From Hyphomicrobiales bacterium (GTDB taxonomy: Bacteria; Pseudomonadota; Alphaproteobacteria; Rhizobiales; Beijerinckiaceae): DNA of 47,310 nt. Location of the stretch: assembly GCA_003963405.1 (NCBI GenBank), contig RXIY01000074.1:1-47310 (forward strand), in the 5' to 3' direction. The position numbers were made by a program, and so were the translations under genes. Below the pieces are notes generated by a model. That model had not been told where the DNA came from. It was given only the letters and a program-made list of their open reading frames with translations, and ran no database searches. Shown here piece by piece: positions 9,431 to 27,777 of this stretch (its first letter is position 1; the number at the start of each line of letters is the position of its first letter).

Positions 9431-9446
9431 TCACTGGTCCGGTCCT

Positions 9447-13242: not shown

Positions 13243-13271
13243 TTGCAACAGTTATTGTGCTCTTGTTGCAA
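13243..13271. promoter_or_regulatory. TTGCAACA inverted repeat upstream of exoR
   Basis: In the 462-base gap 13045-13506 no gene is apparent. The clearest element is TTGCAACA (13243-13250) and TGTTGCAA (13264-13271), perfect inverted octamers with a 13-base AT-rich spacer. The layout suits a dimeric regulator. Similar octamers lie before the peptide locus at 19397-19432. A role in exoR or cytochrome expression is inference. Confidence 0.4.
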
Positions 13272-13506
13272 CACCGCAGGAACATAAGCGGCAGGCGGGT
13301 TCCCGCCGGGCCAGAAGCCCCTTTTCAGCCATAAAAGCTACGATAAGGTCCCCTGGTCACTTGCTCATCCAAGGTGCGGGAAGACAGCCCGGCGGCCGGT
13401 CGCCGCAGGGGACGGGCGTCTGTTTCTCCAGACCCTCTGGATGTGGGGCGAAGCGGTTTTATTTTGCGTTGGGGGTCGCCTGTTTTCCAGGCGCCGGGGG
13501 TTCGGG

Positions 13507-14412
13507 ATGTCGGGTCGCACGATGGTTGCATGGGCGCATAAGAACGCAATCTCCGCCGCATCGCAAAAGCCGGGGCGCGCCATGCTGCCCGCGTGCCTGT
13601 TCGCGGCGAGCTTCGCCATGTTCGTGACGGCCTTCGTAGATCCGGCGCCGGCGCTCGACGCGCCCGCCGTTCGCGCGCCCGAAACGTCTCCCTTGCCCAT
13701 GTTCAAGAATCCCCGCGCGGCGTTGCGGGCCGGGCTCGAGAGCTATCATGCGGGCGACGCGAGCGCCTCCGTGGCCGCGCTGCGCTACGCCGCCGAGGGC
13801 GGCGAAGCCCTTGCGCAGTGGAAGCTCGGCCGAATGTACGCCGACGGCGACGGCGTCGGCCGCGACGACGCCAAGGCCTATGAATATTTCTCACGCATCG
13901 TCGAGCATTTCGCCGAGGCCGACCCCGATCCGCGCGAGCGCTCGATGGCGGCGAACGCCTTCGTCGCCGTGGGCCTTTATCTGAGGGACGGCGTCCCCTC
14001 TGCGAGGATCGAGCCCGACCTCGATCGCGCTTTCGAACTTTTCCGCTATGCCGCGACCTATTTCCGCAACGCCGACGCGCAGTATCACCTGGCGCGCATG
14101 TATCTCGACGGCGCGGGCGTGAAGAGGGATCTGCGGCAGGGCATGAGCTGGCTGGAGCTCGCCGCGCGCAAGGGCCATCCGCAGGCGCAGGCCGTGCTCG
14201 GCGGCCTCATGTATAGTGGCGAGGCCGGCGGCGGCGCGGCGCAGAAGGCGCGGGGCCTGATGTATCTGACTTTGGCCCGCGACGCGGTCGCCGGCGGCGC
14301 CGGCGAGCAGTGGATCATCGACGCGCAGGCGAAGGCGCTGGCCTCGGCGAGCGACGCCGACCGAAGGGCGGCCGTCGCCCTCCTCGAGGATTATCTGCGC
14401 GCCCGCAACTAA
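13507..14412 (+). CDS. exoR: ExoR-like periplasmic Sel1-repeat regulator
   Basis: About 301 residues. A basic N-terminus and a hydrophobic stretch (MLPACLFAASFAMFVTAFV) give a signal peptide for export; three Sel1-type repeats follow (ALAQWKLGRMYADGDGV, ADAQYHLARMYLDGAGV, PQAQAVLGGLMYSGEA). Repeat order, the opening LESYHAGDASASVAALRYAA and the closing DADRRAAVALL fit Sinorhizobium ExoR as I recall it. There ExoR holds the ChvG/ExoS sensor inactive in the periplasm and is cleaved in acid, releasing the response. Starts at 13507, 13522 or 13582 are all possible. Its stop overlaps the stop of the convergent hydrolase gene. Confidence 0.75.
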   Translation: MSGRTMVAWAHKNAISAASQKPGRAMLPACLFAASFAMFVTAFVDPAPALDAPAVRAPETSPLPMFKNPRAALRAGLESYHAGDASASVAALRYAAEGGEALAQWKLGRMYADGDGVGRDDAKAYEYFSRIVEHFAEADPDPRERSMAANAFVAVGLYLRDGVPSARIEPDLDRAFELFRYAATYFRNADAQYHLARMYLDGAGVKRDLRQGMSWLELAARKGHPQAQAVLGGLMYSGEAGGGAAQKARGLMYLTLARDAVAGGAGEQWIIDAQAKALASASDADRRAAVALLEDYLRARN

Positions 14413-15293
14413 TCGCGCGGCGCAGCGTCGCCCCTGAAGGTCACGGGGATCAGCAGGCGCCGCGCGCCGTCCGGCCCCGGCGGCGGAAAGCGCCCGGCGC
14501 GAATGTTCACCTGGATCGATGGCAGGAGAAGACGCGGCGCGGCGAGCCCCCTGTCGCGGCCTTCGCGCGAGGCGATGAATTCCTCCTCGCCGACGGCGTC
14601 GTTGATCTGCACATTCTTGGCCCGCTCCTCGGCGACGGTCGTCTCCCAGGCGTAGAAGTCGCGGCCCGGCGCCTTGTAGTCGTGGCACATGAAGAGGCGC
14701 GTTTCGGGCGGCAAGGCCAGCAGGCGGCGGATCGAGTGATAGAGGTCGCGCGCGTCGCCACCGGGAAAGTCGGCGCGCGCGGTTCCATAGTCCGGCATGA
14801 ACAGCGTATCGCCGACGAAGACGGCGTCGCCGATCCTGTAGGAGACGCAGGCCGGCGTATGGCCCGGCGTGTAGAGAACCTCGATGTCGAGCTCCCCGAG
14901 CGGGACATGCGCGCCGTCCGCGAACAGGCGGTCGAAATCCGCGCCGTCGGGAGCGATGTCGTCGGCGAGGAACTTCGGCCGGAACATGTCCTGCACTTGC
15001 GTGATGTGCTCGCCGATGCCGATCTTGGCGCCCGTGCGCGCCTTGACGATCTGGGCGCCCGAGAGATGATCGGCGTGGGCGTGGGTCTCCAGCGCCCAGT
15101 CGATCGTCAGGCCCTCGGCGCGGGCGACGTCCAGAACCACGTCGATCGAGCGGGAATCGGCGACGCCGCCGCCGGAGTCGAAGTCGAGCACGGGATCGAT
15201 GACGGCCGCTCTCTTGGTCGCCGGATCGGAAACGAGATAGGTGACGGTGAAGGTGGGTTCGTCGAAAAAGCCCCGTATATCCGGCTTCGGCAT
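14409..15293 (-). CDS. Blh-type metallo-beta-lactamase-fold hydrolase
   Basis: A 294-residue metallo-hydrolase resembling the beta-lactamase-like hydrolase (Blh) of BigR operons and the persulfide dioxygenase relatives. Metal ligands: THAHADH (His71, His73, Asp75, His76), His145 in GHTPAC and Asp162 in GDTLF; MPDYGTARADFPGG and MCHDY follow, all typical of this subgroup. Persulfide dioxygenases oxidise glutathione persulfide to sulfite. It is divergent from a TauE/SafE exporter with 106 bases between, exactly the pair found in BigR regulons. A candidate operator lies between them. Whether it is a dioxygenase or a hydrolase cannot be fixed by sequence. Confidence 0.85.
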   Translation of the reverse strand: MPKPDIRGFFDEPTFTVTYLVSDPATKRAAVIDPVLDFDSGGGVADSRSIDVVLDVARAEGLTIDWALETHAHADHLSGAQIVKARTGAKIGIGEHITQVQDMFRPKFLADDIAPDGADFDRLFADGAHVPLGELDIEVLYTPGHTPACVSYRIGDAVFVGDTLFMPDYGTARADFPGGDARDLYHSIRRLLALPPETRLFMCHDYKAPGRDFYAWETTVAEERAKNVQINDAVGEEEFIASREGRDRGLAAPRLLLPSIQVNIRAGRFPPPGPDGARRLLIPVTFRGDAAPRD

Positions 15294-15340
15294 GTTCTTC
15301 CCTCCATCTGGCCGAATTCCGACCTTGGCGCTTGCACAGG

Positions 15341-15381
15341 AGATATATGCGGGTTATCTAAATAAGCAAGTTCTAATGTAG
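15341..15381. promoter_or_regulatory. Divergent promoter with persulfide-regulator-like motifs
   Basis: The Blh-TauE gap is AT-rich here. It holds TCTAAATAAG (15357-15366) and TCTAATGTAG (15372-15381), 15 bases apart, and the imperfect inverted pair AGATA/TATCT (15341-15345, 15355-15359). Related TCTAAT-containing sites occur before the HiPIP/bigR and sqr genes, so a BigR-like repressor probably acts here. Inference from shared motif and gene content. Confidence 0.5.
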
Positions 15382-15399
15382 TGAGCGCCCCTTCCCGCC

Positions 15400-16188
15400 A
15401 TGCTGACGCCTTTCGTCCTGAAGATCGCCGCCGGCGCGCTCTCCGGCGTCTTGGTCGGCTTTTCGCTCGGCCTCGTCGGCGGCGGCGGCTCGGTTCTGGC
15501 CGTGCCGCTCCTCGTCTATTTCGTGGGCGTGCCGGACCCCCATATCGCCATCGGCTCCAGCGCCGTGGCGGTGGCCGCCAACGCTCTGGTCGGCCTGGCG
15601 CATTACGCGCGCGCGGGAACGATCAAATGGCGCTGCGCGGCGATCTTCGCCCTCTTCGGCGTCCTCGGGGCCTTCGGGGGCTCCACTCTGGGCAAGCTGA
15701 TGAATGGGGAGAAGCTGCTGGCGCTCTTTGGCGCGCTGATGCTCGTCGTCGGCGCCTTGATGTTCAGGGGCCGTGGCGGCGCCGGCTTTCCGCAGGTGCG
15801 GCTCAATCGCGAGAACTTCCCGCGCCTCGCCGGCCTGGGCGCGGCGACGGGCGCGCTCTCGGGCTTTTTCGGCGTCGGCGGCGGCTTTCTCATCGTGCCG
15901 GGGCTGATCTACGCGGCCGATCTGCCGATCATCAACGCCATCGGCTCCTCGCTCGTCTCGGTTTCGGCCTTCGGCGTGACGACGGCGGCGAATTACGCCC
16001 GCTCGGGCTTCGTCGACTGGACCCTCGCCACGAGCCTCCTCGGCGGCGGCGTCCTCGGCGCGCTCCTCGGCGCGGCGGCCGCGCGGCGCCTCGCGCCGAA
16101 ACGCGGCGCGCTCGCCGCGATCTTTGCCGGGATCGTCGTCGTCGTGGCGATCTATGTGATCGTCAGGGCCGTCGCCGCGCTCGCCTGA
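15400..16188 (+). CDS. TauE/SafE-family sulfite/organosulfonate exporter
   Basis: A 262-residue inner-membrane protein of the TauE/SafE family, with about eight hydrophobic segments in two homologous halves; each half carries the glycine-rich turn (LGLVGGGGSVLAVPLLV near residue 23 and GFFGVGGGFLIVPGLI near residue 152). Members export sulfite, sulfoacetate or related anions. Beside a Blh-type hydrolase it would remove the sulfite made from persulfides. The ATG at 15400 is 19 bases from the TCTAAT-type motif. It ends back to back with xthA, the two stops lying in TGATCA without a gap. Confidence 0.88.
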   Translation: MLTPFVLKIAAGALSGVLVGFSLGLVGGGGSVLAVPLLVYFVGVPDPHIAIGSSAVAVAANALVGLAHYARAGTIKWRCAAIFALFGVLGAFGGSTLGKLMNGEKLLALFGALMLVVGALMFRGRGGAGFPQVRLNRENFPRLAGLGAATGALSGFFGVGGGFLIVPGLIYAADLPIINAIGSSLVSVSAFGVTTAANYARSGFVDWTLATSLLGGGVLGALLGAAAARRLAPKRGALAAIFAGIVVVVAIYVIVRAVAALA

Positions 16189-16971
16189 TCAGGCGATCTC
16201 CGCCACGACCGGCACATGGTCGGAGGGCTTGTCGCCCGCGCGCAGGCTTTTCACGATCTCGACGTTTTTGAGCCTGTCCGCCGCCTGCGGCGACAGCAGC
16301 AGATGGTCGATGCGGATGCCTTTGTTCTTCTGCCAGGCGCCCGCCTGATAGTCCCAGAAGGTGTAGAGCCCGGCGTCGTCGGTGACGGCGCGCAGCGCGT
16401 CGGTGAAGCCGAGATTGACGAGGCGTCGGTAGGCCCTTCGGCTTTCCGGCAGGAACAGCGCGTCGCCTTCCCAGGCCGCGGGGTCGTGAACGTCGCGCGC
16501 CTGCGGGATGATGTTGTAATCCCCCGCCAGCACGGTCGCCTCCTCGAGCCGCAGCAGCCCCGCCGCATGGGCCGTCAGCGCCTCCATGAAGGCGAGCTTG
16601 TAGGGATATTTCGGCGTCTCGGGCGGATTGCCGTTCGGCGCATAGATCGAGGCGACGCGGACCGCGCCGCTTTCGCCGTCGGAGATCACCGCCTCGATGT
16701 AACGGGACTGGCCCTCGTGATCGAAGCCGGGAAGGCCCGAAAACGATTCCGCGATCGGGTTCTTGGAGAGGATGGCGACGCCGTTGAACGTCTTCTGCCC
16801 GTGCAGGACGACATTATAGCCGGCGTCTTCGACCTCCATGCGCGGGAAGGCCGCTTCCTCGCATTTCAGTTCCTGAAGGCAGAGCACGTCCGGCGCGGTG
16901 TCTTTTAGGAAGGCGAGCAGCGGCGCAAGTCGCTGCCGCACCGAGTTCACATTCCAGGTGGCGATGCGCAA
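16189..16971 (-). CDS. xthA: Exodeoxyribonuclease III
   Basis: A 260-residue AP endonuclease / 3'-5' exonuclease of base excision repair. Visible active-site motifs: IATWNVNS (N-terminal Asn), LQELKCEE (metal-binding Glu), the GDYNI pair (Asp/Asn), and SDHVPV with the catalytic His. No ATG stands near the conserved N-terminus; the TTG at 16971 (MLRIATWN after initiation) has GGAG 7 bases upstream and is the best start. The gene follows a cytochrome c'-like gene by 44 bases and may be cotranscribed. Confidence 0.92.
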   Translation of the reverse strand: MRIATWNVNSVRQRLAPLLAFLKDTAPDVLCLQELKCEEAAFPRMEVEDAGYNVVLHGQKTFNGVAILSKNPIAESFSGLPGFDHEGQSRYIEAVISDGESGAVRVASIYAPNGNPPETPKYPYKLAFMEALTAHAAGLLRLEEATVLAGDYNIIPQARDVHDPAAWEGDALFLPESRRAYRRLVNLGFTDALRAVTDDAGLYTFWDYQAGAWQKNKGIRIDHLLLSPQAADRLKNVEIVKSLRAGDKPSDHVPVVAEIA

Positions 16972-17596: not shown

Positions 17597-19228
17597 TCAC
17601 GGCCCCGGCGGCAGCCGCAAGACCTGCCCTGCCTTCAAGACCTGCCCCGCCTTCAAGACCCGCCCCGCCTTCACGCGGCCCTTGCGCAGGCCGGGATTGG
17701 CGGCGGCGATGTCGCGCCAGCGCCCGGCGTCGCCATAGAGCCGGCGCGCGACGCTGGCGAGCGTATCGCCGCGCCGCACGACGTAGCGGCGTGGCGTCTC
17801 GGGGGCGGCCGGCCGCGTCTCGGCCGGCGGCGCCGCCGTCGTGGCGGCGGCCGCCTCGGGCGCGGACGCGGGCGCTTCGCCGGGCTCCACCACGTCGAAC
17901 TCGCCGCGGATCATGCCCATCCAGCAGCTCCAGGGGATGACGCCGCTTTGCGTCGGCGTGAACTCGATCGTCTGAAGGCCGGGCTTCAGATCGAACTCGA
18001 GCCCCAGCGCGGGGACGACGATGCGGTTGTTGCAGCTCGTGAGCTCCGTGGCGTCGATCACCCATTTGACTGGCGCGCCCCTCGTCAGCGTGAAGCGGGA
18101 AGGATGGTAGCCCAGTCCATTCGCCTCCATCTCGATGATCTGCACGGCGGACGCCGGCGGCGGGGCCGGGGCTTCGGCGCGCCGGATGCGCGCGGCGATC
18201 GAGGCGAGATCGGCGCCGGAGCCGCTCAGGATGAGGCCGCGATTGATCATCACCGCGCCGAGCGCCACGACGATGACGCCCGAGGCGCGCAGCAGTCGAT
18301 GCGTGAGCGCGCTCGAGAGCATCGAGGCGACGGCGCCGAAGGCGAGCATCACCGGCAGCGTGCCGAGGCCGAAGGCGAAGAGCATCTTGGCGCCCTCGAC
18401 CGCGCTGCCCGTTCCCGCCGCCATCACATACATGGCCTGAAGCGGGCCGCAGGCGATCATCAGCCCGTTGAGGAGGCCAATGACGAAGGGCCGATGGCGT
18501 CCGCTCGCCTCCCGAAAGATCCAGCGCTGCAGCGGCGCCGGCAGGCCGAGCCGGAATCGCCGCAGCGGCGCGAAGAACCCCAGCATGTTGAGGCCGAAGA
18601 CGATGAGGAACAGGCCCGCCGCCACGCCCGCCGCGCCGCGCAGCAGCGGCGTAAAGGCGACGACGGCGCCGAGCGCGCCGAACAGCGCGCCGATCGCCGT
18701 ATAGGAGAGCGTCTTGCCGGCCGCGAAGGAAAGATGGGCCAGCGCGGGGGCGCGCCCCGCCCTGGCCTCCGCCGTCGAATAGCCGACGACGAAAGCGCCG
18801 CACATGCCGACGCAATGGAAGCCCGTGACGAGGCCCAGCACGAAGATGAGCCACAGGCTCATCCGCCGGGAGACGTCCGGCGCGCCGCTGTCGCCGATCC
18901 AGCGCGTATCGATGAAAACGAGCGCGGCGAGCAGGAGCAGCGCGCCGGCCGCGAGCGCGAGACGCGCGGCAAGCGGCCGCTGCGGCCGGTTCTCCTCCTC
19001 GACGCGATAGCCGAGCGCCTCGATGCTGCGGCGGATGACGGCGCAATCGACTCGCGCCGGATCATAGTCGACGACGACCGTTTCGGTCGGATAGGAGGCC
19101 GTCGCGCGGCGAACGCCTTCGAGCTTGCGCAGGCGCGCCTCGATGACATGCTCGCATCCATGGCAGTGCATGCCGCGGGCTCTCAAGCTGACGCTGGCGC
19201 ATGTCCCGCTTGTCTCTGCGTTACTCAA
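17597..19228 (-). CDS. HMA-DsbD/SafE-like-cupredoxin-like-LysM membrane protein
   Basis: A 543-residue four-part protein. Residues 10-75: HMA metal-binding domain with MHCHGC (20-25). Residues 90-335: polytopic DsbD_2-type transmembrane domain with Cys139/Cys143 (FHCVGMC) and Cys260 (ACGP), the thiol pair of the CcdA/DsbD fold. Residues 362-447: cupredoxin-like domain with Cys399 and SCWMGM (Cys435). Residues 482-538: LysM-type domain (RYVVRRGDTLASVARRLYG). HMA-DsbD_2 proteins are linked to copper delivery or cytochrome oxidase assembly. The LysM end is unexpected and finishes in three hexapeptide repeats. Initiation is probably the TTG at 19228, as no ATG precedes the HMA domain. Confidence 0.85.
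   Translation of the reverse strand: MSNAETSGTCASVSLRARGMHCHGCEHVIEARLRKLEGVRRATASYPTETVVVDYDPARVDCAVIRRSIEALGYRVEEENRPQRPLAARLALAAGALLLLAALVFIDTRWIGDSGAPDVSRRMSLWLIFVLGLVTGFHCVGMCGAFVVGYSTAEARAGRAPALAHLSFAAGKTLSYTAIGALFGALGAVVAFTPLLRGAAGVAAGLFLIVFGLNMLGFFAPLRRFRLGLPAPLQRWIFREASGRHRPFVIGLLNGLMIACGPLQAMYVMAAGTGSAVEGAKMLFAFGLGTLPVMLAFGAVASMLSSALTHRLLRASGVIVVALGAVMINRGLILSGSGADLASIAARIRRAEAPAPPPASAVQIIEMEANGLGYHPSRFTLTRGAPVKWVIDATELTSCNNRIVVPALGLEFDLKPGLQTIEFTPTQSGVIPWSCWMGMIRGEFDVVEPGEAPASAPEAAAATTAAPPAETRPAAPETPRRYVVRRGDTLASVARRLYGDAGRWRDIAAANPGLRKGRVKAGRVLKAGQVLKAGQVLRLPPGP
17619..17672. repeat. Three 18-bp tandem repeats in the LysM coding end
   Basis: Three near-identical 18-base units (17619-17636, 17637-17654, 17655-17672) encode the hexapeptide KAGQVL/KAGRVL three times at the C-terminal end of the LysM domain. 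One such unit is normal for a LysM end, so the extra copies look like slippage expansion that keeps the frame. Confidence 0.85.
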
Positions 19229-19396
19229 CGTCTCGGGTTTTCCTTCCCCAGAAAGTCCGTCGCCCGGGCGGCGGCCGATCCGATTGATCGGATTTTATGA
19301 CTTTTTGCGGCCCGCGTCCCCTTTTCGATCCTTTTCAAGCAGAAACCGCCTCACCTGTTCAATTTGCGAGAGCGCGCGCCTTGCGGGTCCTTGTCC

Positions 19397-19432
19397 TGTT
19401 GCAAAACTCCAAAAACTTGGTAAATGCAACAA
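19397..19432. promoter_or_regulatory. TGTTGCAA / TGCAACAA inverted repeat before the peptide locus
   Basis: TGTTGCAA (19397-19404) and TGCAACAA (19425-19432) are inverted arms; a further TGCAAC follows at 19435-19440. The AT-rich stretch 19229-19500 otherwise holds no gene and must contain the promoter of the peptide genes. The octamer matches the exoR-side repeat at 13243-13271. Confidence 0.4.
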
Positions 19433-19500
19433 AGTGCAACTTGTCGCCGCCGGAATTCTTGTCTAGGTTGCGTTTCTTTTAATGCAATCGGAGCGTGTCC

Positions 19501-19698
19501 ATGGCAGACGAGAAGGTCGGTGGAAACGAACTGCGCCAGCCCGAAAAGGGGGGCGCGTTTCTTTCCGACGCGGAGCGTCGCGAAGCATTGAAGAAGATTG
19601 GCCGCTACGCGGTCTATGCGTCCCCCTTGATGGTCGGGCTCTTGAAGGCCGACAAGGCGCGCGCGGACATTCCTCCAGGATCGATCCCACCTGAATAG
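19501..19698 (+). CDS. Candidate precursor peptide 1
   Basis: A 65-residue peptide. Residues 21-58 form the block shared with the next peptide (LSD..ERREA.KKIGRY, then A.YA.PLMVGLLKAD). It combines a twin-Arg basic segment with a hydrophobic stretch and ends with an A-x-A site (ARA, 53-55), leaving a ten-residue tail DIPPGSIPPE. The N-terminal 20 residues differ from the paralogue. The ATG at 19501 has GGAG with 7-base spacing. Position before a PqqD-like/HPr-kinase-like gene suggests a modified peptide precursor; the alternative is a small exported or membrane-associated peptide. No family name is assigned. Confidence 0.7.
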   Translation: MADEKVGGNELRQPEKGGAFLSDAERREALKKIGRYAVYASPLMVGLLKADKARADIPPGSIPPE

Positions 19699-19775
19699 TG
19701 GCGACTCCCGAGGCGAGTTCGACTCGTAGTCGGCTCGTGAGTCCGGTCTCGCTGTTTCCTGTTGGTCTGTCGATG

Positions 19776-19791
19776 TTCCCGCGCGCGGGAA
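19776..19791. other. 16-bp perfect palindrome between the two peptide genes
   Basis: TTCCCGCGCGCGGGAA lies midway between peptide 1 and peptide 2. It can form a short hairpin without a T tract. It may attenuate or process the transcript so that peptide 1 is made in excess; that is speculative. Confidence 0.35.
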
Positions 19792-19832
19792 TCTGTGTGG
19801 TTCGTGGGTTTCCTCCGAGCGGAGCAATCAAA

Positions 19833-20017
19833 ATGATGGATGAGGAAAAACAGCAGACGACGCCTGTCAGGGAGGCCGCCTCTCTTTCCGACGTCGAGCG
19901 TCGCGAGGCGCAAAAAAAATTGGCCGTTACGCAGCCTATGCGGCTCCCTTGATGGTCGGCCTCTTGAAGGCGGACGCGGCGCGCGCGGGCATTCCTGTGG
20001 CGTCTGGCGATACATAG
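19833..20017 (+). pseudogene. Candidate precursor peptide 2, frame broken at an A8 run
   Basis: Start ATG at 19833 with GGAG 8 bases upstream. In the written frame it stops at 19952 after 39 codons. Adding one base at the run of eight A (19912-19919) restores a 61-residue peptide ending at TAG 20017, whose residues 18-54 match peptide 1 almost position by position and which also ends with ARA plus a nine-residue tail, GIPVASGDT. Both halves are well conserved, so the lesion is recent, a sequencing error, or bypassed by slippage on poly-A. Listed as pseudogene because the reading frame is interrupted as given. Confidence 0.6.
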
Positions 20018-20232
20018 CAGCGTATGTGAAAGGTGCTCGAGCCGGTATGGGCTCGTTTCCGAGTGCAGGACCGAGCGTGCAGTCGGTTTGGGACGTCGGT
20101 CGCAGTATATCGGGCTGGCGACGTTCGCGCGCCTTCCCTGCGGAATCGCTCCCTGACCACTGATCACGCGAACAGGGCGGAAAGGGTGCGATGGCGCTTT
20201 TTTGAGCCTAGACGCCCCGTCGGCGATTCCAG

Positions 20233-21420
20233 ATGAACATGCGCAGTCGCTCGATCGAATCCTGGTTCCTGGACGATCACCTGTTGATCGCCTCGCTCGA
20301 AGACCGTGCGCTCAGACTATACAACGCGACTGCCGCGGGCTTGTGGCTCCTCTTGTCGGAAGGCCCCCAGAGTCGCTCAGAACTCGCTGACCGTTATGCG
20401 AGCCTGTTTGGGATCGACAGCGCCAGAGCAGACCGCGATGTCGAGGCGCTCCTCTCGGAATGGGAAGAGATCAAAATCATCACGGGTCGGGCGGAGGGCC
20501 GAATAAGGCCCGCGACAGAAAGCTCTCCGGTCGAAACGGTTTCCCGTCGCCATCCGTCCGACGTTCCCGATCGGACAAAGATATTTTCGAAGGACTTTCA
20601 ACTTCAGAATACAGCCTTTCGGGTCGAGGTCAGCAAATCCGACGGCATGGACACGCCGTTGGAGGCGACGCGGCTCGTTGCGATGCTCGCGGGCTTTCCG
20701 GCGGCTCGCGACGAGCCATCCACGACGTTCGAGGCAATCTTTGGAAGCGCGTCCGTTTATGTCAATGAAGGAAACGGCTCGATTTCAGCCTGGAGCGACA
20801 GCATCGGGGCGGTCGCCGCGGTTCTGTCGAAAATATGTGAGACGGCCTATCCCGAGCGGCGGCTTCTCGCCGGGCTGCACGCGGCCTCCGTGGGGCTGGG
20901 CAAGGCGCTGATCCTGCCAGGGGTTTCGGGCGCCGGCAAAAGCACGCTTTCCGCTTATCTCTCCAGCCAGGGATGGCGCTACTTCGGCGACGACGTCATC
21001 GGCGTCGACGACGAGTCGTCCGTGACGCCCTTGCCGACCTCCGCCAATCTGAAGGATGGCAGCTTTTCGATTCTCGCCGACATGCACCCGCGCCTCTCGA
21101 CCCTCGATGCTTTGGCGTTCGGCGCCAAAACAGTGAAATATCTGCCTTTGCCTTGCCAGGTCGACGGACCGGAAGATTTGAAGGTGGCGGGGTTCGTGTT
21201 TCTCAAATACGCGCGAGGGAGCGAAACCGACCTGCAAACGATCGGAACCGTCGAGGCGCTCCAGAGGCTGATCGAAGCGCGCATTTGTCTCAGCAAGGAC
21301 ATCTCGATGAACGGAATGGGCAAATTCGTCGCGATGATCCACGAAACGCCCAAATACGCTTTGGTCTATTCCGATCTTAAAGAGGCCGAGTCATGCCTGA
21401 GGTCGCTCATCCCGATTTGA
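20233..21420 (+). CDS. PqqD-like (RRE) domain fused to HPr-kinase-like protein
   Basis: A 395-residue fusion. Residues about 10-85 look like a PqqD-type winged-helix peptide-recognition domain (LEDRALRLYNATAAGLWLLL, then an acidic helical end). Residues about 120-395 resemble HprK-related kinases: LHAASVGLGKALILPG leading into Walker A GVSGAGKST (230-238) and GDD (252-254). HPr kinases phosphorylate Ser on a protein; related enzymes in peptide clusters phosphorylate a Ser of the peptide. Upstream peptides are the obvious candidate substrates. I recall a TIGRFAM-defined 'HPr-rel-A' system with separate PqqD and kinase proteins; here they seem joined. GC is clearly lower than in flanking genes. 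Confidence 0.75.
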   Translation: MNMRSRSIESWFLDDHLLIASLEDRALRLYNATAAGLWLLLSEGPQSRSELADRYASLFGIDSARADRDVEALLSEWEEIKIITGRAEGRIRPATESSPVETVSRRHPSDVPDRTKIFSKDFQLQNTAFRVEVSKSDGMDTPLEATRLVAMLAGFPAARDEPSTTFEAIFGSASVYVNEGNGSISAWSDSIGAVAAVLSKICETAYPERRLLAGLHAASVGLGKALILPGVSGAGKSTLSAYLSSQGWRYFGDDVIGVDDESSVTPLPTSANLKDGSFSILADMHPRLSTLDALAFGAKTVKYLPLPCQVDGPEDLKVAGFVFLKYARGSETDLQTIGTVEALQRLIEARICLSKDISMNGMGKFVAMIHETPKYALVYSDLKEAESCLRSLIPI

Positions 21421-22484
21421 CGAGGCTCAAATGGCTCGGTCATGCCTTGTCGCCCTATGGAGACAAGGACTGGGTTTGCCGGAACATCTCTCGCGATGAA
21501 CAGGACTGGCGTTTCCTGATCGGCGTCGGCAGCCGGCATTTTGTTCTTCCGGCGCTCCATCGCGCGCTCGTCGCGGAAAAGATGGAAACGGAGCCGCCAG
21601 ACGACGCGCGGGAGGCGCTGGAAGGAGTCTATCTCCTGAATCGGGAGCGCAACCGTGCTCTCCGCGCGCAAATGCTGGAATTGAGTCATTTGCTGAACGG
21701 CCTCGGCGTGGCGCCTGTTTGGCTGAAAGGCGCGACGACGCTCCTGAACGAGGATTGGGCCGCCAGCGCCCGCATGATGGTCGATCTGGACTTCTGGATC
21801 GAGGACGAGCGGGCCTATGACAACATCCTCGCCACCTTCGATCTCGACGGTTACCAAACCTGTGAGGGCGATACCGGGGAAAATCATCTCGAACATCACC
21901 ACTTTGCCCCGAGATACAAGAAGGGGCGGCCTGCCTCGGTCGAGTTCCACAAAAGCCCCTGCGAGTTGAAGTTCCAGGATCTTCTCGACGGCGCACGCGC
22001 AATCGATCGCGTCGAGTGGATCGCGTGGGAGGGGACGGAGATCGGCCAGCTCTGCGCCGTCGACCGGCTGATGAACAGCTACCTTCAATGCATCAGTTTC
22101 CACGCGGACGTGAACAGGCCAGACGACCGCCGCCTGACGGCCGTCGCCCATTTTTCGAAAACGCTCGACTTTCTGGAGAGGTTCGCTGCCTCTCAGACGT
22201 CCACGAAGGATGAGTTTTTCCAACGCCTGCGCGCCGGGCGTCGAATGTCGGACGCACGAAAGTTTTTTTCGATCCTGAAACTCTATTTCGGTCTGGAGGC
22301 CGGCCTCGACGTCGACGCGTCCTTCCTAAAATCGATTGTTTTTGCGACCAGACACCCGAAATTTGTCTATGCGAGGTACATGGCGGGGCATGCCTGGAAA
22401 ACAGTGATCGACGGTCGTCTGGGGCCACCGGGCGCATGGTGGACCAAGATTTACCGGCACGCGCGGAATTTCCACGAACGGTGA
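21393..22484 (+). CDS. Nucleotidyltransferase-family protein of the peptide locus
   Basis: A 363-residue protein of the NTP_transf_5 type (PF14907). The hallmark is LKGATTLL (111-118) followed by ARMMVDLDFWI with the metal-binding DLD at 131-133. The rest is helical with no membrane segment. The gene starts 28 bases before the kinase-fusion stop, so the two are coupled. Family members occur in peptide-maturation and polysaccharide loci, and their reaction is generally undefined; transfer of a nucleotide to a peptide or cofactor is conceivable. It is the last gene of the locus and converges with the YgaP-type gene. Confidence 0.7.
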   Translation: MPEVAHPDLTRLKWLGHALSPYGDKDWVCRNISRDEQDWRFLIGVGSRHFVLPALHRALVAEKMETEPPDDAREALEGVYLLNRERNRALRAQMLELSHLLNGLGVAPVWLKGATTLLNEDWAASARMMVDLDFWIEDERAYDNILATFDLDGYQTCEGDTGENHLEHHHFAPRYKKGRPASVEFHKSPCELKFQDLLDGARAIDRVEWIAWEGTEIGQLCAVDRLMNSYLQCISFHADVNRPDDRRLTAVAHFSKTLDFLERFAASQTSTKDEFFQRLRAGRRMSDARKFFSILKLYFGLEAGLDVDASFLKSIVFATRHPKFVYARYMAGHAWKTVIDGRLGPPGAWWTKIYRHARNFHER

Positions 22485-22624
22485 GGCCAGGCTGGTCGGG
22501 ATCGGCGGCGACATGTTCGTCGGACGCTCTGGGGCGCAAACCGCGACGGTCGCTCGACCGCCACGATTTGACGCATGCGTTTCGGCCAGCTCACGCGCTT
22601 TGGCCCGAGCTGGCCGTTTCAGCC

Positions 22625-22810
22625 TTATCGGCCGAGCGTGTTCATGCCCAGCAGCTTGTAGGCCGGGCAGAAATTGATGAAGGCCGTCGCGAGCGGCACA
22701 AGGCCGATGAGGCCCCACCAGCTTTGCGGACCGATGAAAACAAGACTGAGGAGAAGAACGCCCGCGACGATGCGGATCATCTTGTCTGTCCTGCCGACAT
22801 TGGCTTCCAT
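22625..22810 (-). CDS. YgaP-type (DUF2892) small membrane protein
   Basis: A 61-residue protein with two hydrophobic segments and the family ending FINFCPAYKLLG. This matches the transmembrane module of YgaP (DUF2892), where it is fused to a rhodanese. The Cys before PAY is conserved in the family. The ATG at 22810 follows GGAGGG at 4-6 bases. It stands in the sulfide block, and a second copy lies at 23710. A role in persulfide handling or thiocyanate/sulfur passage is suggested by YgaP only. Confidence 0.8.
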   Translation of the reverse strand: MEANVGRTDKMIRIVAGVLLLSLVFIGPQSWWGLIGLVPLATAFINFCPAYKLLGMNTLGR

Positions 22811-22923
22811 CTTGCCCTCCTCATGATGTGTGCCGATGGGGCGAAAGGTTGCGCCTTCCCGTGCAGGGCTCAAAGGACTTTGTCACAAAAGCGCCTGCGG
22901 CGCGCTGTCGCTTCAGACGCCTT

Positions 22924-23175
22924 CTAGCCCCAAAGATTGCACCAGCCGCGCGCGCTCACCGGCCCCTTGATGACGCCGCAGCCCGACGGCGGCTCGAACC
23001 AGGAGCAATTGGCGCAGCGCTGGCGCCCATTGGGCGACGCGCGATAGGCGGCCGCCGACTGGCTGGTCTTGGCTCGCGCCGGGGCCGCGCCGAAAAACGC
23101 GCCGAGCCCTGAAAAAACAGCCGTCGCGCCAAGGAGCGCGAGGACGCCGCGCCGTCCGTGATCGCTTTTGCGCAT
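22924..23175 (-). CDS. High-potential iron-sulfur protein with Tat signal
   Basis: An 83-residue protein. Twin-Arg signal (GRRGVLALLG, residues 8-17) with cleavage near APARA (residue 35). The mature part has Cys54, Cys57, Cys66 and Cys79, that is C-x2-C-x8-C-x12-C, with WFEPPSG and a final CNLW: the HiPIP signature binding a [4Fe-4S] cluster. Folded export by Tat fits. HiPIPs carry electrons in the periplasm to oxidases or from c-type donors. The start at 23175 has GGGGAGG 5 bases upstream. It diverges from bigR, with a TCTAAT-type motif 60 bases before its start. Confidence 0.88.
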   Translation of the reverse strand: MRKSDHGRRGVLALLGATAVFSGLGAFFGAAPARAKTSQSAAAYRASPNGRQRCANCSWFEPPSGCGVIKGPVSARGWCNLWG

Positions 23176-23234
23176 GAGAACCTCCCCGCCCAAAGCGACG
23201 CCGACCGCCGCGCCGGCGTCTTTAATTCGCTTTG

Positions 23235-23335
23235 TCTAATGTAAGCGCGCCGGCCGCGCCCAAGAATGCGACAAATCGAGCCAGGCAGGCCGGCGGCGCG
23301 CTGCTTGACTTATATATTCGAAAATCATAATTTAG
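23235..23335. promoter_or_regulatory. Divergent HiPIP/bigR control region
   Basis: Two TCTAATTTAGA-like sites lie here: TCTAATGTAAG (23235-23245) nearer the HiPIP gene, and TCATAATTTAG (23325-23335) 6 bases before the bigR start. TTATATATTCGAAAATCATA between them is strongly AT-rich for this genome. Autoregulation by BigR over the second site is likely by analogy with BigR/SqrR. The GC-rich part between holds nothing I recognise. Confidence 0.5.
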
Positions 23336-23340
23336 CGGTC

Positions 23341-23694
23341 ATGAATATGCGTCTCGCCGAACTCGCGCCCAAAGCCGCCGAGGCTGAGAGCTTCCTCAAG
23401 GCCCTCGCCAACCGGCACCGGCTGATGGTGCTGTGCGAATTGCACAAGGGCGAGCATTCGGTCACCCGTCTGCAGGAGGCGGTGGGGCTGAGCCAATCCT
23501 CGCTCTCCCAGCATCTGGCGCGGCTGCGGGAGGACAAGCTCGTCAAGACGCGGCGCGAATCCCAGACGATCTATTATTCCCTCGCCAATGAGAACGTCTC
23601 GCGGATCATCGGCCTCCTCTACGAGCTCTTCTGCGCAGGCGAATGCGACGCGCCGCCGCAAAGGAAGCCGCGCGCGGCGGTCGCCAAAGGCTGA
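23341..23694 (+). CDS. bigR: BigR/SqrR-type persulfide-sensing ArsR regulator
   Basis: A 117-residue ArsR-family winged-helix repressor. The recognition helix region is QEAVGLSQSSLSQHLARL (45-62). Cys32 (VLCEL) and Cys98 (ELFC) are 66 residues apart, exactly the spacing of the two redox Cys in Xylella BigR and Rhodobacter SqrR, which form a persulfide-derived bridge and release DNA; Cys102 is extra. There is no metal-site motif. It heads a rightward set (membrane protein, Crp/Fnr) leading to sqr. Targets are probably its own promoter, sqr, the HiPIP gene and the Blh-TauE pair. Confidence 0.9.
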   Translation: MNMRLAELAPKAAEAESFLKALANRHRLMVLCELHKGEHSVTRLQEAVGLSQSSLSQHLARLREDKLVKTRRESQTIYYSLANENVSRIIGLLYELFCAGECDAPPQRKPRAAVAKG

Positions 23695-23709
23695 ACAAGG
23701 AAAATCCAC

Positions 23710-23910
23710 ATGAGCATCGATCAGATTGTCATGGCTTTCGCGGGCGCGATGGTGCTGCTCAGCGTGACGCTGGCGCATTTCGTCTCTCCCTGGTGGCTGC
23801 TGCTTGCCGTCTTCGTCGGCCTCAACATGTTTCAGGCAGCCTTTACAGGGCTTTGTCCTTTGGCGATGATGCTGAAGCGTTTCGGCGTCCGGCCGGGCGC
23901 AGCTTTCTAA
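23710..23910 (+). CDS. YgaP-type (DUF2892) small membrane protein, second copy
   Basis: A 66-residue protein with two hydrophobic helices and FTGLCPLAMMLKRFG near the end, the Cys-Pro signature of the DUF2892 module. It lies 15 bases after bigR with AAGGAAA before the ATG and 10 bases before the Crp/Fnr gene, so the three are one unit. It differs clearly from the copy at 22625 and is not a recent duplicate. Confidence 0.8.
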   Translation: MSIDQIVMAFAGAMVLLSVTLAHFVSPWWLLLAVFVGLNMFQAAFTGLCPLAMMLKRFGVRPGAAF

Positions 23911-23920
23911 ACGGGCTTCG

Positions 23921-24595
23921 ATGGGCTTCATGCCGGATTGGATCGAGGATATTCCCCTCCTTAGCCGGCTGGACGAGCCGGCGAAGGGGCAGCTGCGCGA
24001 GGCGGCGATCCGCAAGCAGATTCCGCGCGGCGCGGTCCTGTTTCGTCCCGGCGATCAGTGCGTGCATTTCCCGCTGATCGCCGCCGGCACGGTGCGGGTC
24101 CAGCGCGTGACCGAATCGGGGCGGGAAATCGTCCTCTACCGGGTCTCGAACAACGAGACCTGCATCCTCACCACGGCCTCGCTGCTCTCCGACGACGCCT
24201 ATTCGGCGGAGGGAATCGCCGAGACCGACGTGACCGCCTATATCGTCCCGTCCGAGCGTTTCGCCGCGCTGATGAACATGTCGGCGCCGTTCCGCGCCCT
24301 CGTCTTCGACGGCTATTCCAAACGCATCGCCACGCTGATGTCGCGCATCGAGGAAATCGTCTGCACGCGCATCAATGTACGTCTGGCGGAGCGCCTGCTG
24401 GCGCTCAAGGGCGCAGACAACCGCATCAACGTCACCCAGCAGGCGCTCGCCGCCGATCTCGGCACGGCGCGCGAAGTGGTGGGCCGCACGCTCAAGAGTT
24501 TCGAGCGTTCGGGCTGGGTCAGATTGTCGCGGGGCGGCACCGAAATCACCGACGCCAGGGCTTTGCGCGCCCTCTGCGACGCCGAGCGTGACTAA
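23921..24595 (+). CDS. Crp/Fnr-family regulator
   Basis: A 224-residue regulator with an N-terminal cyclic-nucleotide-binding-like beta-roll (RGAVLFRPGD..., 36-110), a long dimer helix and a C-terminal HTH (VTQQALAADLGTAREVVGRTLKSF, 171-194 in two parts). Cys47, Cys81, Cys148 and Cys219 are present, but not the N-terminal Cys cluster that binds FeS in Fnr. It might sense redox or persulfide through Cys. It sits between bigR and sqr and probably controls the sqr-cyd operon. An ATG at 23930 is an alternative start; neither has a clear ribosome site. Confidence 0.85.
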   Translation: MGFMPDWIEDIPLLSRLDEPAKGQLREAAIRKQIPRGAVLFRPGDQCVHFPLIAAGTVRVQRVTESGREIVLYRVSNNETCILTTASLLSDDAYSAEGIAETDVTAYIVPSERFAALMNMSAPFRALVFDGYSKRIATLMSRIEEIVCTRINVRLAERLLALKGADNRINVTQQALAADLGTAREVVGRTLKSFERSGWVRLSRGGTEITDARALRALCDAERD

Positions 24596-24611
24596 GTCGC
24601 AGTTATAATCT

Positions 24612-24622
24612 TCTAATTTAGA
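24612..24622. promoter_or_regulatory. Palindromic TCTAATTTAGA site upstream of sqr
   Basis: Perfect 5-bp arms around one central T, 61 bases before the sqr start and inside an AT-rich stretch (24603-24639) in a GC-rich genome. It is the best copy of a motif also seen at 15357, 15372, 23235 and 23325. It is the proposed operator for the persulfide regulator. Confidence 0.55.
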
Positions 24623-24682
24623 TAATTTGAATATATAAGGAGCGTCGCGGCGACGGCAGCGGCTCCTGGGAGGAATATCCGA

Positions 24683-25963
24683 ATGGCTCATATTGTAATT
24701 CTCGGCGCCGGCATTGGCGGCGTGGCGGCGGCGATCGAAGTGCGCGACGGGCTGAAGAAAGAGCATAAAGTCACCGTCGTGTCGGATCTGCCGAACTTCC
24801 AGTTCACGCCCTCCAATCCCTGGCTCGCGGTCAACTGGCGCAAACCCGATGAGCTGAAGGTGCCGCTCGCGCCTGTCTTCAAGAAGAAGAACATCGGTTT
24901 CACCGATGTGGGCGCGAAGAAGGTGCATCCGGCGGAAAACCGCATCGAGCTCAACAATGGCGAGAGCCTCGCCTACGACTATCTGGTGATCGCGACGGGG
25001 CCCAAGCTCGCCTTCAGTGAAATTCCGGGGCTGGGGCCGCATGGCGGACACACTCATTCGATCTGCACCTTGCAGCATGCCGAGGTCGCCTCCAAGGCCT
25101 GGGACGACTTCTGCAAGGATCCGGGCCCCATCGTGATCGGCGCGGCGCCGGCGGTCTCCTGCTTTGGCCCGGCCTATGAATACGCCATGATCGTCTCGAC
25201 CGATCTGCGCCGACGCGGCATCCGCCACAAGGTGCCGATGACCTTCGTCACCGCCGAGCCCTATATCGGCCATCTGGGCCTTGGCGGCGTGGGCGACACC
25301 AAGGGAATGCTCGAATCGGCCTTCCGCGACCGCGACATCAAATGGATCACCAACGCCAGGACGACCGCCGTCGAGCCGGGCGTGCTGAAATGCGACGAAC
25401 TCAACGAGGACGGCTCGGTGAAGAAGGCGCATGAGCTGCCGTTCAAATTCGCGATGATGATGCCGGCCTTCACGGGCATTGACGCGCTGATGGGAATAGA
25501 GGGCCTCGTCAATCCGCGCGGCTTCGTGCTCATCGACAAGAACCAGCGCAACCCGAACTTCCCGAATGTGTTCGGCGTCGGGGTCTGCGTGGCGATACCG
25601 CCCGCCGAACCGACCCCGGTGCCGACCGGCATGCCGAAGACGGGCTATATGATCGAATCCATGGTGACGGCGACCGCACACAACATCGCGGCGCTGATCA
25701 ACGGCAAGGAAGCCAAGGAAGAAGGCACCTGGAACGCGGTCTGTCTCGCCGACTTCGGCGACCGCGGCGTCGCCTTCGTCGCGCAGCCGCAGATCCCGCC
25801 GCGCAACGTCAACTGGTCGAGCGAAGGGCGCTGGGTGCATCTCGCCAAGGTCGCCTATGAGAAATACTTCCTGCGCAAGGTGCGCAAGGGCCAGAGCGAG
25901 CCGGTCTATGAGCGTTACATCATGAAGCTTCTCGGCATCGAGCGGCTGCGCAACGCGCTCTAG
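24683..25963 (+). CDS. sqr: Sulfide:quinone oxidoreductase
   Basis: A 426-residue FAD enzyme oxidising sulfide to polysulfide/persulfide and reducing membrane quinone. The Rossmann motif GAGIGG is at 8-13, and VIATGP follows at 102-107. The three redox Cys are Cys128 (SIC), Cys160 (AVSCFGP) and Cys354 (AVCLADFGD); the first two share numbering with the Acidithiobacillus type I enzyme as I recall it. The C-terminal part has the family's amphipathic helices. An AGGAG-like site precedes the ATG. It leads a tight run of genes ending with a rhodanese at 34030. Confidence 0.95.
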   Translation: MAHIVILGAGIGGVAAAIEVRDGLKKEHKVTVVSDLPNFQFTPSNPWLAVNWRKPDELKVPLAPVFKKKNIGFTDVGAKKVHPAENRIELNNGESLAYDYLVIATGPKLAFSEIPGLGPHGGHTHSICTLQHAEVASKAWDDFCKDPGPIVIGAAPAVSCFGPAYEYAMIVSTDLRRRGIRHKVPMTFVTAEPYIGHLGLGGVGDTKGMLESAFRDRDIKWITNARTTAVEPGVLKCDELNEDGSVKKAHELPFKFAMMMPAFTGIDALMGIEGLVNPRGFVLIDKNQRNPNFPNVFGVGVCVAIPPAEPTPVPTGMPKTGYMIESMVTATAHNIAALINGKEAKEEGTWNAVCLADFGDRGVAFVAQPQIPPRNVNWSSEGRWVHLAKVAYEKYFLRKVRKGQSEPVYERYIMKLLGIERLRNAL

Positions 25964-26003
25964 CAAGCGCCGGCGCCGGGCTCTTTTGGAGGTTTTGAAT
26001 CAG

Positions 26004-26165
26004 ATGGCGCGAAGAAGGCTGAGACGGGAGCTCGCGGCGGCGATCTTCTTCAAGATCGCGGCGATCTTCCTGCTCTGGTTCTGGTTCTTCGGCCCGGCGC
26101 AACGCGTGCATGTCACGCCGGCGGACATGGCCGCGGCCCTCGCCCGGGGGCCGCAGCCGCATTAA
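26004..26165 (+). CDS. cydP: CydP-like small subunit of the bd oxidase
   Basis: A 53-residue protein: basic N-terminus (RRRLRRELAAAI), one hydrophobic helix (FFKIAAIFLLWFWFFG) and a short polar tail. It matches the small CydP proteins encoded before cydA in many proteobacteria. GGAGG lies about 11 bases before the ATG. It is 40 bases after sqr and 19 before cydA. Function in assembly or stability of the oxidase is inferred from position. Confidence 0.75.
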   Translation: MARRRLRRELAAAIFFKIAAIFLLWFWFFGPAQRVHVTPADMAAALARGPQPH

Positions 26166-26184
26166 GCATTCGAAAGCGAGCCTC

Positions 26185-27765
26185 ATGTTCGACCATCTCG
26201 ACGTCGTCACGCTCTCCCGCCTGCAATTCGCGCTGACCGCGCTCTATCACTTCCTGTTCGTGCCGCTGACCCTCGGCCTCTCGCTCATCATCGCGATCAT
26301 GGAGAGCGTCTATGTGATGACCGGCCGCGAGATCTGGCGCGACGCGGTGAAATTCTGGGGCACGCTGTTCGGCATCAATTTCGTCATGGGCGTCGCGACC
26401 GGCGTGACCATGGAATTTCAGTTCGGCACCAATTGGGCCTATTACTCCCATTACGTCGGCGACATTTTCGGCGCTCCGCTCGCCATCGAAGGGCTCATGG
26501 CCTTTTTCCTCGAGGCGACCTTCGTCGGACTCTTCTTCTTCGGCTGGGATCGGCTCACCAAGGTCCAGCATCTCATCGTCACCTGGTGCGTCGCGCTCGG
26601 CTCCAATTTCTCGGCGCTGTGGATTTTGATCGCCAACGCCTGGATGAGCAATCCGGTCGGCGCCGCCTTCAATCCGCAGACCATGCGCATGGAGCTGACC
26701 TCCTCCCTCGAGGTGATGTTCAATCCCGTCGCCCAGTCCAAATTCGTGCATACGGTGAGCGCCGGCTATGTGACGGGCGCCGTCTTCGTCATGTCGGTCG
26801 GCGCCTATTACATTCTGCGCCAGCGCCATGTGGACATCGCCCGCCGCTCGCTCACCGTCGCCGCGAGCTTCGGCCTCGCCTCCGCGCTTTCGGTCGTCGT
26901 GCTCGGCGACGAGAGCGGCTATACGGCGGGCGAGAACCAGAAGATGAAGATCGCCGCCATCGAGGCCATGTGGGAGACCGAGCCCGCGCCCGCCTCCTTT
27001 ACGCTGTTCGGCCTGCCCGATCTCAAGACCCAGACGACGAAATATGAAGTGACGGTGCCCTATGTGCTGGGCCTCATCGCCACGCGCTCCCTCGACAAGC
27101 CCGTCGAGGGAATCAAGCCGCTCGTCGAGCGCAACGAGGAGCGCATCCGTCACGGCTTGCCCGCCTATAAATGGCTGACCGAACAGGGTGGCCGGCCCAA
27201 TGCGCGGGTGCCCGCCGAGCTCGAGGATTCGATGCGCGACGCCGGCTATGCGCTGCTGCTGAAGCGCATCCGCGGCGACATCGAGAACGCCACGCCGCAG
27301 CAGATCCACGAGGCCGCGCTCTCCACCATTCCAGACGTCCCCGTGCTGTTCTGGAGCTTCCGCATCATGGTGGCGCTCGGCTTCTATTTCATCGCGCTCT
27401 TCGCCGTCGCCTTCTATCTTTCCAGCCGGCGCCGCTGCGGCCGTCCCTGGTTCCTGCGGCTTTGCATGTTGAGCCTGCCGCTGCCCTGGATCGCGGCGGA
27501 GCTCGGCTGGATCGTCGCGGAATATGGCCGTCAGCCCTGGATCATCGACGGCGTGATGCCGACCTTCCTCGGCGTCTCCGGCGTGCCGGCCTCCAATGTG
27601 CTGGCGAGCCTTCTCGCCTTCGTCGCCTTCTATACGGCGCTCGCCGTCGTCGATGTGGCGCTGCTCGCAAAATACATCCGCAAGGGACCGCATGGCGAAG
27701 AGGCGCATGCGCCGGGCGCGGGCGCGCTGCCCGAGGCGCAGCCCGCCTATGACGCTTCACGCTAG
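26185..27765 (+). CDS. cydA: Cytochrome bd ubiquinol oxidase subunit I
   Basis: A 526-residue, nine-helix haem protein that oxidises quinol and reduces oxygen without pumping protons. His22 (LYHFLFVPLT) is a haem ligand region; GWIVAEYGRQPW and the long Q-loop (starting METEPAPASF, carrying the EERIRHG segment) put it in the long-loop class of E. coli CydA (522 residues). The bd type resists sulfide, in contrast to haem-copper oxidases, which fits co-transcription with sqr. The start at 26185 gives the standard MFDHLDVVTLSRLQFA. Confidence 0.96.
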   Translation: MFDHLDVVTLSRLQFALTALYHFLFVPLTLGLSLIIAIMESVYVMTGREIWRDAVKFWGTLFGINFVMGVATGVTMEFQFGTNWAYYSHYVGDIFGAPLAIEGLMAFFLEATFVGLFFFGWDRLTKVQHLIVTWCVALGSNFSALWILIANAWMSNPVGAAFNPQTMRMELTSSLEVMFNPVAQSKFVHTVSAGYVTGAVFVMSVGAYYILRQRHVDIARRSLTVAASFGLASALSVVVLGDESGYTAGENQKMKIAAIEAMWETEPAPASFTLFGLPDLKTQTTKYEVTVPYVLGLIATRSLDKPVEGIKPLVERNEERIRHGLPAYKWLTEQGGRPNARVPAELEDSMRDAGYALLLKRIRGDIENATPQQIHEAALSTIPDVPVLFWSFRIMVALGFYFIALFAVAFYLSSRRRCGRPWFLRLCMLSLPLPWIAAELGWIVAEYGRQPWIIDGVMPTFLGVSGVPASNVLASLLAFVAFYTALAVVDVALLAKYIRKGPHGEEAHAPGAGALPEAQPAYDASR

Positions 27766-27777
27766 AGGAGAGCGGCA

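Follow-up and report, generated by a model that had tools for sequence, protein, structure and literature searches.

A candidate cassette for linear, phosphate-modified peptides pairs Tat-like precursors with an RRE-kinase fusion in an alphaproteobacterial genome

What is made by a cassette in which two very small genes precede a kinase-like fusion and a nucleotidyltransferase-like gene? The cassette lies on the forward strand of the window, by which we mean the whole analysed stretch of 47,310 nucleotides (Hyphomicrobiales bacterium, assembly GCA_003963405.1, contig RXIY01000074.1). It comprises peptide 1 (19501..19698, 65 residues), its paralogue peptide 2 (19833..20017), a 395-residue fusion of a lasso-B1/PqqD-type RRE domain with an HprK-like kinase domain (20233..21420), and a 363-residue NTP_transf_5 nucleotidyltransferase-like protein (21393..22484). 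An earlier note on this DNA took the peptides for substrates of the enzymes and considered phosphorylation or nucleotidylation of the peptide tail a possible modification. We think it fairly probable that the cassette yields a linear, phosphate-modified, exported peptide. The gene anatomy, the peptide family that holds both window peptides, the catalytic residues, the co-occurrence in genomes and the adjacency of nucleotidyltransferase and kinase in a related genus are directly supported.

The fusion is built as the earlier note described it. Residues 31-83 (20323-20481) match the PqqD model PF05402 (E 1.5e-7, 32.1 bits, cut-off 23.4), and residues 215-392 (20875-21408) form a TIGR04352-like kinase domain (E 2.6e-20). 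A profile made from eight fusion-type proteins is closest to the lasso-peptide B1 proteins TfuB1 (4e-10) and TbiB1 (5e-9) in its front half and to HPr kinases in its back half. In a six-row kinase alignment, H216, the P-loop residue K236, D253 and K274 do not vary, and D254 is present; as a motif, these residues fit the His-Lys-Asp-Asp catalytic set that PMC9266682 gives for lasso kinases. The predicted structure of the fusion (mean pLDDT 73.8, pTM 0.74) matches PEP carboxykinase and HPr kinase folds with modest TM-scores, as expected for a putative kinase of this fold. The second enzyme gene overlaps the end of the fusion gene by 28 nucleotides and matches PF14907 (NTP_transf_5, E 4e-20), again in line with what had been noticed, and its K112, G113, R127, D131 and D133 are invariant in a six-row alignment. 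The model of this protein is poor (mean pLDDT 60.2): its best Foldseek match has an E of 1.1e-3, and none reaches E <= 0.001. Short exact peptide patterns of the window fusion gave no confirmed relatives in viral_contigs or genome_contigs, and its plasmid relatives (12 records) are all below 60% identity.

The substrates of twin-arginine translocation (Tat) carry a twin Arg, then at least 13 uncharged residues, then A-x-A. Peptide 1 follows this rule, with R26 and R27 (19576..19581, on the forward strand like the rest of the cassette), a 13-residue uncharged run and A-R-A at residues 53-55 (19657..19665), which resembles a signal-peptidase site. The tail behind it (residues 56-65) contains a single serine, Ser61. 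The leader also holds Y-A-S-P-L-M (19615..19632), a near-match to the RRE-binding motif [Y/W]xxPx[L/V/I/A/F/Y]; the corresponding stretch of peptide 2 is Y-A-A-P-L-M, and in its tail a Ser stands as far from A-R-A as Ser61 does in peptide 1. The motif is published for the leaders of lasso peptides and of linear polyphosphorylated peptides (LPP) (PMC13381572).

The claim of two paralogous peptide genes stands for peptide 1, which is intact, and for the kinship of the two, which belong to one family by profile; the frame of peptide 2 is broken in the window. The frame that opens at 19833 ends at 19952 after 39 residues, the part homologous to peptide 1 runs in another frame (19916-20017), and the switch falls at a run of eight A (19912-19919). 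In G800, a genome of the same species, the gene is intact and encodes 62 residues. Programmed frameshifting was considered and rejected: the RNA past the run shows no excess of structure over shuffled sequences (z 0.64). Because excess RNA structure is lacking and the same-species copy is intact, we take peptide 2 of the window to be a broken allele or a sequence error, and the A8 run to be only possibly slippery.

A family profile was grown from four kinase-adjoining peptides to 26 strong frames in the analysed loci, and 21 of these frames were aligned. In a whole-genome search, the profile hit peptide 1, itself one of its 21 rows, with an E of 2.1e-14; for the second half of peptide 2 the value is 5.3e-6. 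These matches, together with a second cassette on contig C57 of the same genome, point to more than a chance likeness. The family layout consists of RR..L...G, a lasso-type YxxPx[LV]-like stretch, a Tat-like uncharged run, A-x-A and a variable tail; R, R, L and G are invariant across the 21 rows, and P is nearly so. No model specific to this family was found in Pfam or NCBIfam. Among Tat-signal models at E up to 5, TIGR01409 matches 8 of the 21 members (best 2.2e-4), TIGR02811 matches 6 (best 4.5e-6) and PF10518 matches 1. The family thus resembles TIGR02811 (formate dehydrogenase region TAT target) and TIGR01409 (TAT_signal_seq) in the twin-Arg front of small proteins, and differs from them in its extra Y/P motif and linked kinase and in that peptide 1 matches neither. 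A larger set of 75 distinct leaders was obtained from 80 matches by removing three without RRxxL and two repeats; truncated or broken frames account for at least two of the 75. The twin Arg is followed by an uncharged run of at least 13 residues in 73 of these leaders. The RRE-binding motif is present in 39 (1.33 expected from shuffles), a count that is not independent of the profile because the profile itself holds Y and P columns; the motif was sought only after its publication for lasso and LPP leaders was known. Ser or Thr occurs in all 43 tabulated tails, some of which have Ser at every third residue, and for tails this short its presence is suggestive only.

The peptides are probably substrates of the enzymes, as had been proposed, since 18 of 27 kinase loci examined, all fused or fused-type, have a family peptide within ~3 kb, and peptide and kinase co-occur in genomes even when they lie far apart. 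Among the 18, the peptide at L024 is broken and that at L194 is a weak match. The nine loci without a near peptide are L018, L030, L063, L065, L066, L074, L197, L199 and L201; the locus L066 is cut by the end of its contig, and in the genomes of L197 and L199 peptides lie at other places. The 27 exclude L161, L162 and L164, which are the same places as L061, L062 and L066, and proteins with PqqD behind the kinase. In 98 genomes of one genus, the peptide and a full-length fused kinase (19 matches at E < 1e-50) occur together in 18, the peptide alone in one (G753), the kinase alone in one (G756) and neither in 78, among which we count G729, which lacks the peptide and whose two kinase matches, near 1e-21, are partial. 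Even in G756 a weaker, window-like peptide adjoins the kinase (2e-6, local scan). Each kinase in this genus accompanies one to six peptide genes, some of them distant; those of G375 lie ~52 kb and 2.1 Mb from it. A PF14907 match stands beside the kinase in 19 of the 19 fused-kinase genomes; in G768 that match has two internal stops and a second match lies 45 kb off. Of the first 20 listed of the 78 genomes with neither gene, two have a weaker PF14907 match.

In a phylum survey of 397 genomes, a kinase match (E <= 1e-10) is present in 14 of 14 peptide genomes versus 93 of 383 others. Eight of the 397 have a full-length fused kinase (E < 1e-50), and seven of these have peptides by the family profile; the eighth, G525, has no peptide at the profile cut-off nor within 15 kb around its kinase. 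A class survey of 289 genomes found 43 strong peptide matches (E <= 4e-8; the half-match of peptide 2 and weaker ones left out) in 31 genomes, 24 of them within 3 kb and 32 within 45 kb of a typed kinase. Peptide and PF14907 occur together in 27 of these genomes, the peptide alone in 4, PF14907 alone in 32 and neither in 226; PF14907 matches were found in 61 of the 289 and typed in 73 of 75 cases, two below the cut-off being left out. The earlier note had asked whether related kinases are found mainly without such a peptide. For fused kinases they are not; for all typed HprK-like kinases they are, with a profile-detected peptide within 3 kb of 21 of 87 and within 45 kb of 27 of 87. The 87 are typed among the matches listed, most frames of ~140-190 residues having been left out as presumed housekeeping HprK, and they include lasso-cluster kinases as well as HPr-rel-A kinases beside longer proteins, Tat-like by eye, that the profile misses.

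Several observations weigh against the reading of the peptides as Tat-exported substrates of these enzymes. Eleven of the 43 strong peptide matches have no typed kinase within 45 kb. The Fisher p of 1.7e-17 for peptide and kinase in the 98-genome genus ignores kinship, and shared ancestry inflates it. In G753, which has the peptide, neither a kinase match at E <= 1e-20 nor a PF14907 match is present; G157 likewise lacks a PF14907 match, and its several peptide matches are accompanied by a single weak match to the kinase profile (4.3e-7). Peptide 1 matches neither TIGR01409, TIGR02811, PF10518 nor any other Tat-signal model, and 13 of the 21 family members have no TIGR01409 match even at E up to 5. 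The final M of the motif in both window peptides falls outside the published RRE-binding consensus, and 36 of the 75 leaders lack the strict motif. Of these 36, 29 contain A-x-[A/T]-x-S, a pattern counted first on 21 hand-chosen class II segments and then on all 75 leaders; peptide 1 is among the seven without it.

Alternatively, the peptides might be remnants or coincidences: short stubs that resemble Tat signals and decay next to enzymes that serve some other purpose. Peptide 2 is broken here, and the copy on Ensifer adhaerens pCasidaAB is broken too, elsewhere in its frame; the weaker family-profile matches are largely frames of 350-450 residues, as ordinary Tat signals would give. Peptide 1, however, differs from its G800 counterpart at 1 of 65 residues, peptide 2 is intact in that genome, and peptide and kinase co-occur both genus-wide and phylum-wide. 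We judge decay to be quite improbable.

In the reading that we prefer, that of a modified and exported peptide, serine phosphorylation followed by glycosylation or nucleotidylation of a linear product is the most likely course. The RRE front domain of the fusion would bind the peptide leader around Y-x-x-P, and the HprK-like kinase would place one or more phosphates on the tail Ser, Ser61 in peptide 1. The NTP_transf_5 protein may then add a sugar or nucleotide to the phosphate, by analogy with PsmN. The leader would double as a Tat-like signal, so that the product could leave by the general Tat pathway and be trimmed by signal peptidase. A Pfam-type scan covered 18 window frames between 3174 and 28914. 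These frames include no dedicated SipW-like signal peptidase (no genome search for one was made), no MsbA-like exporter, and no asparagine-synthase-like cyclase or B2 protease. This agrees with the earlier observation that cyclase, protease and exporter are missing; the lack of a dedicated peptidase and exporter may be explained by the Tat-like signal with A-R-A, because it would allow general export and trimming.

The same two enzymes might instead act on a sugar or polysaccharide precursor of the cell surface, with the peptides travelling along as unmodified, Tat-exported matrix mini-proteins. In G083, G131, G238, G312 and G314, kinase and peptide lie ~37-40 kb apart with PF14907 between them, and the intervening DNA of G314 contains, by eye, polysaccharide-type frames (chain-length determinant, ligase, glycosyltransferase-like); three loci that are close relatives of one another also have rmlA, rmlC and rmlD next to the fused kinase. 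Set against this, the fusion carries at its front an RRE of the lasso-B1 type, which is a domain that binds peptides; those characterised systems that come nearest and have the same gene trio act on peptides; and none of the 18 scanned frames is a polysaccharide gene by Pfam. A polysaccharide role without peptide modification seems to us unlikely.

The closest published counterpart to a modified linear peptide is LPP (lppABKSDN; Popov et al. 2026, PMC13381572), the linear polyphosphorylated peptides of Bacillota, described there as Bacillota-restricted; the word start 'proteobacter' is absent from the main text of that paper. LppK phosphorylates Ser3 of a linear core (PMC13381572). The window system shares with LPP a short precursor with a conserved front and variable tail, an RRE, an HprK-like kinase, an NTP transferase, a YxxP-type leader and the absence of a cyclase. 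The NTP transferase of the window locus is a PF14907 protein, and LPP genes often stand in polysaccharide loci (PMC13381572). The differences are these: the LPP RRE is discrete whereas that of the window is fused to the kinase, LPP has a SipW-like signal peptidase and an MsbA-like exporter whereas the scanned frames have neither, and the window leader looks like a Tat signal. Of the LPP leader motif YxxPxVLxHQxIxFETxxS, the window peptides have only Y-A-S-P-L-M and Y-A-A-P-L-M. Because several defining features of LPP are absent and the fusion falls below the TIGR04352 cut-off, we file the system as one that would work like LPP, a variant rather than a member. For the compact class that the earlier note envisaged, here taken as one of linear phosphopeptides, LPP is already an example in print.

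Phosphorylated lasso peptides provide the enzymatic precedent. PadeK and ThcoK phosphorylate the C-terminal Ser of their precursor, and PsmK and PsmN are linked to phosphorylation followed by hexosylation, the nucleotidyltransferase homologue PsmN being associated with a hexose on phospho-Ser, though not by an established direct reaction (PMC9266682). Paeninodin (PadeK) and pseudomycoidin (PsmK, PsmN) resemble the window in the type of HprK-like kinase and in the nucleotidyltransferase homologue. They differ in that the 18 scanned frames contain no cyclase or B2 protease, the window precursor has twin Arg and A-x-A, and further residues follow the candidate Ser. Of the two modifications first suggested, Ser phosphorylation is the better guess, with H216, K236, D253 and D254 kept. 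The second modification, by the nucleotidyltransferase, is the part that we hold with least certainty; it is weakly founded because deletion of LppN had no visible effect in the heterologous system (PMC13381572).

The window peptides could also depend on a lasso system elsewhere in the genome, being processed by its cyclase and protease. Contig C40 of the same genome (L026, 2873-9847) carries NTP_transf_5, PqqD and an HprK-like kinase near frames that by eye are asparagine-synthase-like and B2-like, and is apparently a lasso-type cluster. The lack of cyclase and B2 protease among the scanned window frames argues against such dependence, as does the twin-Arg signal of the window leaders; lasso leaders are not known to carry one. 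We regard dependence on the C40 cluster as very improbable.

HPr-rel-A, with its TIGR04352 kinase and separate PqqD-family chaperone, has the same three enzyme types as the window. In Sphingomonas parapaucimobilis, the annotated separate chaperone, kinase and nucleotidyltransferase follow the gene of a small protein, Tat-like by eye. The HPr-rel-A system mentioned in the earlier note does not take in the window fusion at the curated threshold: the window kinase scores 72.7 bits, far below the equivalog cut-off of 200, and its PqqD-like domain is fused, with no separate chaperone gene.

Among the papers listed by searches of open-access full text, judged by titles and abstract starts, none named a product for the proteobacterial set or dealt with its pairing of peptide and kinase. 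Kinases of the fusion-related HprK-like kind are common in genomes of the class, and the peptide family offers a candidate substrate for this widespread set of kinase and NTP_transf_5 protein. If the proposal is true, linear phosphopeptides extend beyond Bacillota, a Tat signal acts as an RRE leader, and dispersed precursors are modified in trans, where gene-neighbourhood mining alone would overlook them. A whole proteobacterial class of such peptides, in which the Tat signal is the RRE leader, the general signal peptidase trims, one enzyme set serves scattered peptides and the products are phosphorylated or phospho-glycosylated surface peptides, is an idea that we hold as possible, falling a little short of probable.

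The cassette sits in a segment of approximate extent 19181..22624 that appears inserted, being absent in the congeners read and present at 99% identity, with both enzymes full length, in G800. Its GC content is 0.59-0.61, versus 0.65-0.71 upstream and 0.61-0.66 downstream. In five of five congeners, picked because both flanks showed up in the search listing, the flanking genes are 57-148 bp apart, versus ~3.4 kb in the window. Among the matches listed, the flank pieces are 57-174 bp apart in at least 22 of 35 other-species genomes searched, kilobases apart in G031 and on different contigs in G014. With the fusion as query, 36 same-genus genomes (a set without G800) gave one weak match (6.3e-4) and 35 no match. 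Comparison of G800 with the window gives 6 silent differences and 6 altered codons for the fusion (395 codons) and, for the nucleotidyltransferase (363 codons), 5 and 4, a small sample that is consistent with mild constraint of both enzymes at most. No sigma-70-type promoter was found between 19200 and 22800. A role in anti-phage defence was rejected, with no PADLOC match for either enzyme or for peptide 1.

The scanned neighbours are unrelated to the cassette: a DsbD_2/HMA/LysM protein, a YgaP-like membrane protein, HiPIP, regulators, a Pyr_redox_2 flavoprotein and cytochrome bd. From 22625 to 28917 the window holds the YgaP-like and HiPIP genes, ArsR-type and Crp-type regulators, the Pyr_redox_2 flavoprotein and cytochrome bd, likely a sulfur or respiratory cluster. 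At other loci, two sets of candidate partners were rejected. Full rmlA, rmlC and rmlD for dTDP-rhamnose occur in 3 of 22 loci searched, the three belonging to one lineage, with a weak RmlA match in a fourth, and heptose genes are conserved neighbours inside one subgroup only, which is not independent evidence. At L196 (G722, 7306-16955), two dispersed peptides lie a few kb from HlyD-type and ABC-transporter genes.

Peptides with unusual tails or extensions occur in the family. A subfamily (L131, L135-L144 and others) has at least two Cys in the tail, such as PSPC...C; its members lie mostly 37-40 kb from a kinase or have no nearby kinase, and some are near an HldE-like PfkB/cytidylyltransferase gene and MmcB. 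The frame at L029 (G052, 2685-3452) joins a peptide-type leader to a long Gly/Ser/Arg stretch and, at the C-terminus, a part that by eye is PepSY-like, and adjoins what looks like a two-component pair. At L190-L193, tails of repeated SRPSYSRP-like units, with Ser at short regular spacing, stand next to kinase-PqqD proteins, and these peptides are possible multi-site substrates. In the genomes of family label f195, which we take to be Xanthomonad-like, YSRPS-like repeat peptides adjoin a kinase with a C-terminal PqqD domain.

The enzymes vary as well. At L024 (Ensifer adhaerens pCasidaAB, 6739-7073, for the broken peptide frame), the RRE and kinase parts are also in different frames. L065 (G256, 3903-6194) combines nucleotidyltransferase, RRE and a kinase-like domain in one frame of 764 residues, with a P-loop that is degenerate by eye, and the RRE-kinase fusion of L030 (G045, 2437-3636), in which the catalytic His and P-loop are replaced in the alignment, is a possible pseudo-kinase. 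The window's own genome carries further sets. On contig C99 (L159, 5398-14148), an HprK-like kinase, PqqD and NTP_transf_5 lie together with frames that by eye are radical-SAM-like, possibly asparagine-synthase-like and chain-length-determinant-like. Contig C57 (L025/L157, ~1373-3924) holds a second complete cassette, with a peptide ending ASAQSINPPPPDPN, an RRE-kinase fusion ~21% identical to that of the window, and an NTP_transf_5 gene.

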